Positions 35,706-39,124 of a stretch of DNA of 54,251 nucleotides are shown here, piece by piece. A program made the position numbers and the translations under genes. This DNA comes from Pelagibacteraceae bacterium (GTDB lineage: Bacteria > Pseudomonadota > Alphaproteobacteria > Pelagibacterales > Pelagibacteraceae): positions 1 to 54,251 of the forward strand of contig VTPP01000005.1 in the NCBI GenBank assembly GCA_008638225.1. The letters run 5' to 3'. The notes under the pieces are model-generated. The model did not search any database and was not told where the DNA came from. It saw nothing but the letters and a program-made list of their open reading frames with translations. Position 1 is the first letter of the stretch; each line of letters opens with the position of its first letter.

Positions 35706-36572
35706 TTAAACTGGATCCACGTGGGACATCACATTAAGCACCGCTGGCATACTAGTCATAACCGCAAGTCTTGCTGCAACAGCTATATCATGACCCTCCC
35801 TAACGCTTATGTTGGCGTCTACTTCAATATGCACATCTACTAAAATCATATCTCCCATTTTTCTTGTTTTAAGATCATGAATACCTTTTACTCCCTTAGT
35901 CTCTAAAATAATATTTGTTATTTGTTTATCTTCTTCAAGCGACACTGAGCGATCCATTAAATCGTGAAGTGCATCCCAAGAAAAACCCCACCCCATTTTA
36001 ACGATCATTAATCCTACAACTAAAGCAGCAATGATATCAAAAACACCATAGCCGAATAATGCTCCGACAATACCAATGGCCACTACAAAAGATGAAGCAG
36101 CATCTGATCTTGCATGCCAAGAGTTTGCAATCAGCATCGCTGATTTTACTTGTTCGCCAACATGCAGCATATATCTAAATAGCAATTCCTTAATAACCAA
36201 GGCGCCTAAAGCGACCCACAGTGCGATTATTTTAATTTCAACAATTTCATCTGAGTATGCAATTTTATAACCTGCGTGCCAGATCATTAAAATTCCAACT
36301 CCAATTAAAGATAGTCCTATAAAAGCAGTTGCTGCTGTTTCGTATCTATAGTGGCCGTAGTGATGATCTTCATCTGGATCTTTGCTGCTATGCTTATTTG
36401 CAATTAAAACAACAATGTCTGAAACTAAATCAGAAAAAGAATGTATTCCGTCGGCAATTAAACCTTGAGATCCTGAAAAAAAACCGGTTACAATTTGAAA
36501 CGTTCCAAGACACAAATTAACAAAAACGCTAACTAAAGTACTTTTCTTAGCAGCCGTGTGTTTCTCAATCAT
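35706..36572 (-). CDS. Cation diffusion facilitator transporter
   Basis: This 288-aa inner-membrane CDF protein exports divalent metal (Zn, Fe or Mn class). It has about six TM segments, metal-site motifs ADGIHSFSDLVSD (HxxxD-type) in TM2 and NSWHARSDAASS in TM5, the HHYGHYRYE loop, and a C-terminal cytoplasmic dimerisation domain (VHIEVDANISVREGHDIA, VMSHVDPV). Metal specificity cannot be read safely. It is on the minus strand, 19 nt from the exonuclease stop. Confidence 0.92.
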   Translation of the reverse strand: MIEKHTAAKKSTLVSVFVNLCLGTFQIVTGFFSGSQGLIADGIHSFSDLVSDIVVLIANKHSSKDPDEDHHYGHYRYETAATAFIGLSLIGVGILMIWHAGYKIAYSDEIVEIKIIALWVALGALVIKELLFRYMLHVGEQVKSAMLIANSWHARSDAASSFVVAIGIVGALFGYGVFDIIAALVVGLMIVKMGWGFSWDALHDLMDRSVSLEEDKQITNIILETKGVKGIHDLKTRKMGDMILVDVHIEVDANISVREGHDIAVAARLAVMTSMPAVLNVMSHVDPV

Positions 36573-36591: not shown

Positions 36592-37281
36592 TTAATGAAT
36601 ATTAATTGCATTTTTCATAAGACGATGCAATTTTTGTCCTTGTTTACAAACTTTAACTAGATCAGAAAGAGTAGATATATTTCTTTTCTTCGCCTCTTCC
36701 ACTAAAAATAAAAATAATCTACCCGTAATAATACTGTCTCCTAATGCAGAATGTCTCGCTTGATCGTTACTCTGAATATTAAAATGATTACAAAGAGAAG
36801 TTAATTCATAACTCTGTAAATCTGGATAAAGTCCCGCAGATAGCAGGATAGTATCAATGGTAACTACATTTTTAATAAAAATTACAAGATTAGATTTTGG
36901 AATATTCGTCTTAATAAAATTAATATCAAAATCAATATTATGTCCTACTAAAATTGTCTCCTGAAGATAAGAAGAAATAATTGGTTCAATTTCTTCCAAG
37001 CTTTTTTTTCCCTGTACTTGTTCGTTTGTAATATTGTGTATTTGAGTTGAAGCAGCGGATATCTCTATTCCAGGATTAACTAATTCATTAAGAATTTCCT
37101 GTTCCTGAATTTGTAAATTTTTAATTTTAATTGCTGCGATAGAAATAATTTTGTCTTTTTTAAAATCAAGACCCGTTGTTTCCGTATCTAAAACAGAATA
37201 AGTAGCATCCGCTAAATTTATTTTAGCAAAGGCTAATCTGTTTTTTAAATATAGTTTAACTCTATTAAAAATACTCTTCAC
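36592..37281 (-). CDS. DnaQ-like DEDDh 3'-5' exonuclease
   Basis: This 229-aa protein has motif I SVLDTETTGLDF, motif II LVGHNIDFDINF and motif III RHSALGDSIITGRL. It overlaps by about 17 nt the CBS-DUF294 gene. An AGGAG Shine-Dalgarno 6 nt upstream favours GTG 37281 as start over TTG 37284. In other bacteria such exonucleases are paired with or fused to DUF294 nucleotidyltransferases, often beside acetate symporters, so a nucleotide- or signalling-related role is more likely than DNA polymerase proofreading. Confidence 0.85.
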   Translation of the reverse strand: MKSIFNRVKLYLKNRLAFAKINLADATYSVLDTETTGLDFKKDKIISIAAIKIKNLQIQEQEILNELVNPGIEISAASTQIHNITNEQVQGKKSLEEIEPIISSYLQETILVGHNIDFDINFIKTNIPKSNLVIFIKNVVTIDTILLSAGLYPDLQSYELTSLCNHFNIQSNDQARHSALGDSIITGRLFLFLVEEAKKRNISTLSDLVKVCKQGQKLHRLMKNAINIH

Positions 37282-38728
37282 CAAAATCTCCTCTTGCGCT
37301 TTTTTTTAAGTCACTAATTTTTCTTAAATACATTTTTAGAACTTGCTTTTCCCTGGTCAGTAACGTTTTTGGGTCTATAAAGTTTAGGATTTCTTTTCCT
37401 CGTTTTGCTCGCTCAACTTGGTTTTTAAGAAGAATATCAGACAAAAATCTAAAAGCATTTTTAAAAAAATCAAAATCATGATTATTAAAAACTCCTTTAG
37501 CCCGCAGACCTTCTAGTCTTTCCATAGTTGAAACTTTATCAATCTGATGTTTAATTGAGTACAATCGTATTGATTCTACTAATGGCAAAGATGCGGTGTG
37601 TTTTAGATCAAGCATACCAAGATTATTTTCATCATTTTTTTCCAAAACAAATCCTCCAAAAAAATTAAGGCCAGATGTTGCTGCTTCTTCACTTTTATAA
37701 AGAAATTTAAGCACATTTTTGTTTTGTAGCTTTTTTAAAATATAAACTCTTAGCTCATCAGCTAATTCTGGCTTACCAAACACCGACTTAAAATCATAAA
37801 GCATGTCGATATACCGAAGGTTTTGTTCAGCCATATCCGATGTCCATAAATCAATTTGCTTTTTCCAGCCTGAAATACTTTTTCTCCATAAAATATTACT
37901 CGCCATTAAATCTCCTTTACACAAAGGAATGCCAACCGCATCAAGCGTTTTAGTAAATATTTTTGCTAATTCTAAAAAATATAAATCAACTTTTTTTGGG
38001 TCTTGATCATTATCTTCATAAATAATTCCATTATCTTGATCAGGATGTAGAAAGCTTTCCATTCTTCCGCCTGATCCCATGGTTAAAACACAGTATGCGG
38101 GAATAGTTGTTAATATATTTTTTGCTTGTACTTTTTCTTCAGCATCTCTAATGGCTCTTCTGTAAATAACATTATTCAAAAAACTAAGAATATAACTAAT
38201 GTCACCTGTTGGAACATTTTGTTCTATCAAGTTTTCGGCTAACAGTACTTGCTGCTCTTTAATTTGTTTTAATCCTTCAAGATCTTTTTCATCGTATGCA
38301 AGCCTATCTATTTGATCAACAATAGTTCCTAACTCTGCGGTTAAAGCGGTATGCATATCAATTATACCAACTGGAAAAGAATTCATATCAATCACTGGTA
38401 GATGTCTAAATTTATTTTTTCTCATCTTTCCAACTGCATGAAATAGCAAATCCTCTTCGTAGACTGTGATGACAGGACTGTTCATAAGTTCTGAAACTTT
38501 TGCATCAGACTTTACATTAAAAGTTATTTTACGAACAATGTCTTGTTCGGTTAGAATTCCGCACAACTTATTATCTTGAATAACAAGAATACTTGATTTT
38601 TTTTTTAATTGAATTTCTTTAATAGCATTCTCAATTGTTTGCGTATGATCCACAATGACATAATCATTGTTCATGTAATTTTTTATTTGGTGAGTAAATA
38701 TATCAACACTATTTGATCGTGGTAACAT
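37265..38728 (-). CDS. CBS-pair / DUF294 nucleotidyltransferase-like regulator
   Basis: This 487-aa protein has two CBS repeats (about residues 20-75 and 85-135), then a GlnD-like nucleotidyltransferase domain with GSGGRMESFLHPDQDNG (GS and DxD metal motif), then the DUF294 C-terminal helical domain. The cNMP-binding domain often found at the N-terminus is missing. Such proteins are thought to modify or sense nucleotides; the target is unknown. It is coupled with the DEDDh exonuclease. No symporter gene is adjacent here. Confidence 0.85.
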   Translation of the reverse strand: MLPRSNSVDIFTHQIKNYMNNDYVIVDHTQTIENAIKEIQLKKKSSILVIQDNKLCGILTEQDIVRKITFNVKSDAKVSELMNSPVITVYEEDLLFHAVGKMRKNKFRHLPVIDMNSFPVGIIDMHTALTAELGTIVDQIDRLAYDEKDLEGLKQIKEQQVLLAENLIEQNVPTGDISYILSFLNNVIYRRAIRDAEEKVQAKNILTTIPAYCVLTMGSGGRMESFLHPDQDNGIIYEDNDQDPKKVDLYFLELAKIFTKTLDAVGIPLCKGDLMASNILWRKSISGWKKQIDLWTSDMAEQNLRYIDMLYDFKSVFGKPELADELRVYILKKLQNKNVLKFLYKSEEAATSGLNFFGGFVLEKNDENNLGMLDLKHTASLPLVESIRLYSIKHQIDKVSTMERLEGLRAKGVFNNHDFDFFKNAFRFLSDILLKNQVERAKRGKEILNFIDPKTLLTREKQVLKMYLRKISDLKKSARGDFGEEYF

Positions 38729-38757
38729 GATCAGATAATAAAGAATAAAGTGGATTT

Positions 38758-38788
38758 AAAAAAGGGGAAGTTTGCTTCCCCTTTTTTT
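38758..38788 (-). terminator. Rho-independent terminator of the 65-aa gene
   Basis: A perfect stem GGGGAAG (38764-38770) / CTTCCCC (38775-38781) with TTTG loop is flanked by A6 and T7, so it reads as a terminator in both directions. It lies 10 nt after the stop of the minus-strand 65-aa gene and 29 nt before the CBS-DUF294 start, insulating the two. Confidence 0.92.
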
Positions 38789-38797
38789 AAAATGTGG

Positions 38798-38995
38798 TTA
38801 TTGAAATCTATTTGGTGCTAAATGAGCTTTTACTGAGCCCTTTCCAGAACCATTTTTAATTACATAACCTGTTGTGCCGTTGGCATAAGTATCAACCGAT
38901 TTAATTTTATTAGCAATCATTCGGTTTTTTTCTTCAACAGATTTTTGCTTACTGAATTTGATCAAAAGATCGTTTATTCTATGCAGCAACATCAT
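38798..38995 (-). CDS. Uncharacterised 65-aa protein, stand-alone transcription unit
   Basis: The protein has an amphipathic N-terminal half (RINDLLIKFSKQKSVEEKNR) and a Gly/Lys-rich C-terminal half (NGTTGYVIKNGSGKGS). It has no signal peptide, no TM segment and no family I recognise. Expression signals are unusually complete: a sigma70-like promoter at 39097-39124, a leader with four hairpins, AAGAGG Shine-Dalgarno at 39000-39005 four nt before ATG 38995, and a strong terminator at 38758. A second in-frame ATG follows at once. It is probably abundant or tightly regulated. Confidence 0.72.
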   Translation of the reverse strand: MMLLHRINDLLIKFSKQKSVEEKNRMIANKIKSVDTYANGTTGYVIKNGSGKGSVKAHLAPNRFQ

Positions 38996-39092
38996 TGTAC
39001 CTCTTGTTAAAAGTTAACCTACTTTTAACTCATGTAGATGAGTCACTTGTAAGCCATGTGAATGGCGCATGTTACATATTCGTAAAATGCAT
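38996..39092 (-). promoter_or_regulatory. Structured 5' leader with four tandem hairpins
   Basis: Reading along the minus-strand transcript: H1 39090-39067 (GCAT.TTAC paired to GTAA.ATGC with one mismatch), H2 39066-39053 (GCCAT TCAC ATGGC), H3 39042-39029 (CTCAT CTAC ATGAG), and H4 39029-39006 (GTTAAAAG/CTTTTAAC, 8 bp). The Shine-Dalgarno follows immediately. H1 and H2 are contiguous, and H3 and H4 touch. The arrangement looks like a cis-regulatory RNA; its class and ligand are unknown. Confidence 0.6.
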
Positions 39093-39096
39093 GTCT

Positions 39097-39124
39097 AATA
39101 TAATGAGAAACCTTAGATTGTCAA
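39097..39124 (-). promoter_or_regulatory. Sigma70-type promoter for the 65-aa gene
   Basis: On the minus strand a perfect -35 TTGACA (39124-39119) is followed by a 16-nt spacer and TATATT (39102-39097; five of six -10 matches). The predicted start near 39090 coincides with the first base of hairpin H1. The -35 box lies inside a small inverted repeat GATTGT/ACAATC (39116-39131). Confidence 0.75.

Follow-up and report, generated by a model that had tools for sequence, protein, structure and literature searches.

A tandem-pseudoknot leader RNA before short peptide genes of SAR11 bacteria and their phages is a candidate nitrogen-status riboswitch

The window analyzed here is a 54,251-nt stretch of Pelagibacteraceae DNA (GenBank assembly GCA_008638225.1, contig VTPP01000005.1, positions 1 to 54,251), and its minus strand holds the transcription unit of a 65-codon ORF. 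Comparison with relatives and named records assigns the window to the order Pelagibacterales (SAR11). A sequence-only reading of this DNA had described the unit as a promoter (TTGACA, a 16-nt spacer, and TATATT), a leader of ~95 nt, a Shine-Dalgarno sequence, the ORF, and an intrinsic terminator, and all of these were located where that reading had placed them. The features of the unit are as follows.

39119 to 39124, minus strand: -35 hexamer TTGACA, kept in same-genus homologues and not significant alone
39097 to 39102, minus strand: -10 hexamer TATATT, separated from the -35 hexamer by a 16-nt spacer
39088 to 39104, minus strand: operator-like site overlapping the -10 hexamer (reverse complement TGCATGTCTAATATAAT), from a weight matrix built on relatives' glnA promoters
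39067 to 39090, minus strand: 24-nt dyad GCAT...ATGC at the expected transcript start, hairpin 1 of the sequence-only reading
39044 to 39065, minus strand: pseudoknot 1, with stem CCA (39065-39063)/UGG (39056-39054) and loop CAC (39060-39058) pairing with GUG (39046-39044)
39019 to 39043, minus strand: pseudoknot 2, with stem ACUCA (39043-39039)/UGAGU (39032-39028) and loop CUAC (39037-39034) pairing with GUAG (39022-39019)
39000 to 39003, minus strand: Shine-Dalgarno sequence GAGG, ~15 nt 3' of pseudoknot 2
38798 to 38995, minus strand: 65-codon ORF encoding a small basic protein of the phrog_32989 family
38765 to 38781, minus strand: bidirectional intrinsic terminator, stem GGGGAAG/CTTCCCC plus a T run

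The promoter had also been given weight, but promoter-like sites with at least 11 of 12 matches number 5 in the window against 5.75 expected in Markov sequence, a count within chance expectation. The TTGACA/TATATT pair is kept upstream of same-genus homologues of the 65-aa gene, and in four same-genus leaders the ends of the dyad at 39090-39067 (GCAT...ATGC) are kept and its interior is variable. The leader folds at -24.2 kcal/mol compared with -14.7 kcal/mol in shuffles (z = -3.26). The broader proposal of a self-contained unit selected for conditional expression is judged correct. On the 3' side, the terminator (38758-38781) is bidirectional, yet the neighboring DUF294/CBS gene (37265-38728) lies on the same strand.

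The leader had been read as four consecutive hairpins. The minimum-energy fold, in which hairpin 2 is extended over the GUG, was rejected because 7 of the 24 homologous leaders disrupt it at columns 26-46 and none disrupts the knot-1 pairs, and we therefore conclude that the leader core (39065-39019, minus strand) consists of two tandem H-type pseudoknots. Elements 2 and 3 of the earlier description are the stems of these pseudoknots, and element 4, the hairpin at the Shine-Dalgarno sequence, has no conserved counterpart across clades. For the covariation test the structure was fixed as the two stems and two loop-tail helices and was scored over 30 distinct host and phage leaders, in which 98.3% of the 480 cells were paired and 68 cells had changed on both sides. 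The covariation score was 0.429 compared with 0.143 in shuffles, none of the 500 shuffles reached it, and pairing fell to 16-34% in a control with the partners slid by 1-3 columns. Compensatory changes, by which the sequence-only reading had proposed to check the leader, are thus many and fall in both knots, including their loop-tail helices, the hallmark of an H-type pseudoknot. The middle pair of knot 1 is A-U, U-A, or G-C across homologues. Knot 2, whose loop-tail pairing spans a UAAAA linker, has both-sided changes in three of its four knot pairs and in two stem pairs, with the variants CUAC/GUAG, UCGC/GCGA, GCC/GGC, CCAC/GUGG, GUCC/GGAC, CAGC/GCUG, CAUC/GAUG, and GUAC/GUAC. Leaders from two families of the order share the motif CCAU-n-CxC-AUGG...AAGxG followed by RCYSAU-loop-AUSRG-UUAAAA and then the complement of the loop. 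Genus g5 has a second form (type-B) in which both knots are retained (GUC/GAC; CUAC/GUAG or CGAC/GUCG) and the knot 2 linker gains a hairpin. The unpaired positions of the RNA are strictly conserved, and in the 12 leaders measured 11-21 nt separate knot 2 from the downstream Shine-Dalgarno sequence. No common expression platform was found across clades: the predicted accessibility of the Shine-Dalgarno sequence differs between them, and its masking was rejected as a general platform for this inconsistency. That the tandem-knot leader is a cis-regulatory structured RNA is strongly supported.

A profile search with the window RNA gave matches in 74 of the 397 genomes of the order Pelagibacterales; among those inspected, matches below ~25 bits were nearly all due to chance, and weak matches were set aside as mostly coding, one example lying just 5' of a riboflavin-type gene. 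The genome of the window (1.02 Mb) carries a single copy of the RNA. A degenerate pattern recovered at least 119 stretches in reference genomes and 31 in viral contigs, and among the matches listed (80 titles) all were from Pelagibacteraceae except the isolate HIMB114 and one contig labeled Methylophilales. The latter (L215, DGAZ01000046.1, labeled Methylophilales bacterium UBA4017) combines the SAR11 RNA and the small gene with a CDF gene resembling that at 35706-36572 of the window, and is probably mis-binned, or otherwise a transfer. Some contigs of the viral collection resemble host DNA, among them L140 and L341, which have a ClpP-like gene and tRNAs. Among the 148 pattern matches listed, the RNA was followed by a relative of the 65-aa protein in 122 and by other short ORFs (32-78 aa) in 20, 5 ran off the contig end, and 1 was a chance match in coding sequence; placement before a short ORF, a trait of RF01704, was therefore found in 142 of the 148. 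The other ORFs were a 48-aa RPRAK peptide (5 loci), a 38-48-aa peptide ending in ENRWGYK (10 loci), a short HHWILARFS-type peptide (4 loci), and a 78-aa ORF (1 locus). An autoregulated leader should always have one protein family downstream, whereas this RNA also precedes short ORFs of at least three other kinds. The ENRWGYK-ending phage peptide encoded 3' of the tandem knots (viral contigs L334-L356) is conserved and has no database match. Phage copies of the RNA often lie directly 3' of a T4-type late promoter, TATAAATA. In two viral contigs (L135, 3666-3946; L163, 3664-3945), alphaproteobacterial-type tmRNA genes lie directly upstream of a homologue of the small protein.

The family of the 65-aa protein was present in 293 of the 397 Pelagibacterales genomes, nearly always as one copy, and, among 289 genomes sampled from the class, in no further one; in these searches the family was limited to Pelagibacterales and to viral-collection contigs. 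All 16 scanned members matched phrog_32989, a family of a phage-protein library that is of unknown function and uninformative on the host gene or the leader. The protein has a basic N-terminal half, predicted with low confidence to be helical, and a conserved NGT-GY-IK-G core; its AlphaFold model (pLDDT 71.6, pTM 0.38) shows a helix and a hairpin and is too weak for a fold search. Searches of Pfam, NCBIfam, and the PDB with the 65-aa protein gave nothing convincing, and no characterized homologues were found for it, for the RPRAK peptide, or for the other peptides.

In close relatives, the tandem knots are exchanged for a known riboswitch. Two genomes of the window's genus (G002 and G005), the only ones with RF01739 matches among 197 genomes of the order, have this glutamine riboswitch (60.2 bits) in place of the tandem knots before the 65-aa homologue. 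The same alternation occurs in T4-like phage contigs, with RF01739 (51.4 bits) before the 65-aa homologue in L156, near T4-type baseplate genes, and the tandem pseudoknot before it in L053, near gp32-like and RecA/UvsX-like genes (gene names on both contigs were assigned by inspecting translations). A second peptide family repeats the pattern: in Pelagibacter phage Mosig the RPRAK peptide MDLLKEIRA...ARPRAKKNLFTDDPRMQGI follows RF01739 (50 bits), and in HIMB114-type SAR11 the RPRAK homologue ...SRPRAKDNVINPNQKGI follows the tandem knots. These two RPRAK peptides are homologous by both a shuffle test (0 of 20,000) and a profile comparison (E 8e-10), and no similarity was detected between the RPRAK and 65-aa families. 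The leaders of G002, G005, L156, and Mosig all pass the RF01739 gathering score of 35 bits. In pelagiphages HTVC103P and HTVC168P (L383, 1201-1721; L214, 3465-4024), the two peptide families interchange before a shared 121-aa gene (phrog_20984, 60% identical), and this common position suggests equivalent roles. For both families, the majority of phage copies lack a dedicated leader. The exchange of regulators over the same genes points to one physiological signal reported by the two RNAs, a result that stops short of proving the same ligand.

In seven other SAR11 genomes, from two genera, a homologue of the 65-aa protein stands next to glnA, with an Fe-S carrier gene on its other side. These glnA-linked copies have no tandem-knot leader, and the RNA was absent before glnA itself in the genomes inspected. 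Within group g4, 35 of the 36 genomes with the pseudoknot carry just one member of the family, at the pseudoknot locus; in two of three such genomes inspected the erpA-glnA gap contains no gene, and in the third it holds no relative of the 65-aa family. In g4, the pseudoknot-linked copy stands in for the glnA-adjacent one. The erpA-glnA gap of pseudoknot-positive genome G082 (L111, 3' side of glnA) holds a different short basic ORF, MTKFISSLKNIIGFKK.... The glnA promoters of the family carry GCATAnCTGAYAT, and an operator-like palindrome of about GCATAnCTGATATGC is common to glnA promoters (L110-L123) and many small-gene promoters. The site in the window had p = 0.007 in dinucleotide shuffles of its upstream region, one of 30 regions tested. 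Over these 30 regions, the glnA-site matrix scored in small-gene promoters of g1, g6, g4-short, and g10 (p 0.003-0.05 each) and gave no score in the glutamine-riboswitch members of g1, in g2, g5, g8, and knot-bearing g4, or in the second family of the order. In promoters inspected by eye, the site is at or just downstream of the -10 hexamer of the small gene and upstream of that of glnA, a placement that would suit one regulator controlling the two genes in opposite directions but is suggestive only; the shared palindrome possibly reflects an NtcA-like opposite logic exerted by some regulator.

The 54-kb window contains no match at Rfam 15 gathering scores, and the leader matched neither RF01739 nor RF01704 even at E values up to 10; snoRNA and nuoG matches of the leader in the Rfam scans were discarded as far below threshold. 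A description of the tandem-pseudoknot element was not found in the open-access literature. The element is an RNA class uncatalogued in Rfam 15, within the known kind of riboswitch or leader RNA. The leader exchange and the adjacency to glnA make it a candidate for a third glutamine (nitrogen-status) riboswitch architecture. Our main reading, to which we give a probability of roughly 55%, is that this class absent from Rfam is a nitrogen-status riboswitch, with glutamine as the leading candidate ligand, that would exert translational control over a short basic peptide tuning glutamine synthetase or closely related nitrogen assimilation. The case for a nitrogen-sensing riboswitch is strong but indirect. 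The more specific proposal of a third glutamine riboswitch class, built of two tandem pseudoknots, used in SAR11, acquired by their T4-like phages and controlling peptides that modulate glutamine synthetase, is put forward tentatively. Under such a mechanism, high glutamine would stabilize the tandem knots, the stabilized knots would alter ribosome access 11-21 nt downstream, and the altered access would change synthesis of the peptide that may tune glutamine synthetase. In cyanobacteria, synthesis of the glutamine-synthetase inactivating factor IF17 is under a glutamine riboswitch and is activated by glutamine (PMC6316151); by this parallel, activation is predicted.

Other accounts of the RNA must be weighed against the same observations. 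The least unlikely is a riboswitch of the same kind that responds to another nitrogen or carbon signal, such as 2-oxoglutarate, glutamate, an amino acid, or a nucleotide. The exchange of leaders indicates shared physiology rather than an identical ligand, the sequence is unlike that of the glutamine aptamers, and two similar modules stand in tandem, all of which suit this account; we nevertheless hold it unlikely, as the exchange involves RF01739 only and does so in two gene families, in hosts and in phages. An mRNA operator would instead be bound by a protein, either a host RNA-binding protein or the encoded basic peptide, that represses or activates translation, on the model of autoregulated ribosomal-protein leaders and the T4 gene 32 pseudoknot. 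Small tandem pseudoknots adjoining the ribosome-binding site and followed by basic products are compatible with protein binding, but homologues of the same protein occur without this RNA, under the glutamine riboswitch, and several unrelated peptides follow the same RNA. The latter makes simple autoregulation by one protein unlikely, and autoregulation was rejected as the main model; we regard a protein operator in general as rather unlikely.

A constitutive 5' structure, acting without a ligand to stabilize the transcript or fix its translation rate, would account for the phage copies that start directly after the late promoter, that is, at the 5' end of the transcript. We consider it improbable, given that the element is exchanged with a known metabolite riboswitch and that its unpaired positions are strictly conserved, two facts that point to a recognized surface. 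The sequence-only reading had offered a thermosensor and a dual-function RNA beside a riboswitch, and these, or chance hairpins in an AT-rich leader, would be compatible with the fold z-score of -3.26 taken alone. Against them stand the covariation of the two pseudoknots across distant lineages and phages, the conserved unpaired positions, and the lack of a conserved structure masking the Shine-Dalgarno sequence; the dual-function idea is unsupported, and chance hairpins are refuted by the covariation (0 of 500 shuffles). All three are very improbable. On the comparative evidence, the riboswitch option is favored over both thermosensing and binding by the encoded protein.

Smith et al. 2013, as cited in PMC13198564, describe the Pelagibacter nitrogen response as PII-independent in their title. 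The nitrogen-status riboswitch proposed here, a compact RNA sensor paired with a peptide, is a concrete candidate for nitrogen-status feedback onto SAR11 ammonium assimilation, and the candidate pair occurs in an isolate (HIMB114) and in phages. The Melnitz paper (PMC9004378) reported a glutamine riboswitch in phage Mosig and read the riboswitch of Melnitz as tmRNA control. In Mosig (MT647606.1; L363, 1514-1739), the glutamine riboswitch lies directly 5' of the 51-aa RPRAK peptide gene, which suggests the short peptide as its target; phage-borne glutamine riboswitches thereby gain a plausible target in a short peptide gene. Should the tandem-knot RNA bind glutamine, this one ligand would have a third riboswitch architecture, and the RNA would be useful for the study of convergence among RNA aptamers.

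Among known systems, the element resembles the single H-type pseudoknot riboswitches SAM-V, SAM-II, and preQ1-I in having a compact H-type knot near the ribosome-binding site, but it differs from them in sequence, in its two tandem knots, in having no Rfam match, and in its Shine-Dalgarno sequence, which lies outside the knot strand, 11-21 nt past knot 2 in 12 leaders. The RF01704 riboswitch is pseudoknot-based and occurs in a phage, and its downstream ORFs have about 17-100 codons. This glutamine-II riboswitch (Downstream-peptide motif) is glutamine-responsive and occurs in marine bacteria before short ORFs (PMC2864571, PMC6316151), as does the window RNA, which differs in its two tandem knots and in its occurrence in SAR11 and their phages rather than in picocyanobacteria. 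SAM-V was itself discovered in SAR11 (PMC2704228, PMC6061858). The peptides recall the cyanobacterial IF7 and IF17 in being short proteins, IF7 and IF17 being under nitrogen-status control, with IF17 regulated through a glutamine riboswitch (PMC6316151); unlike these factors, the SAR11 peptides match no described glutamine-synthetase inactivating factor family in Pfam or NCBIfam, and their link to glutamine synthetase is the genomic association with glnA. The glutamine-I riboswitch (glnA motif, RF01739) is a junction aptamer with the conserved core CGUUCA...GACGGAAGUAG...GAAGGAACGC, which is absent from the window RNA, but the two RNAs are alike in having the same two peptide families downstream, in close relatives and in phages.
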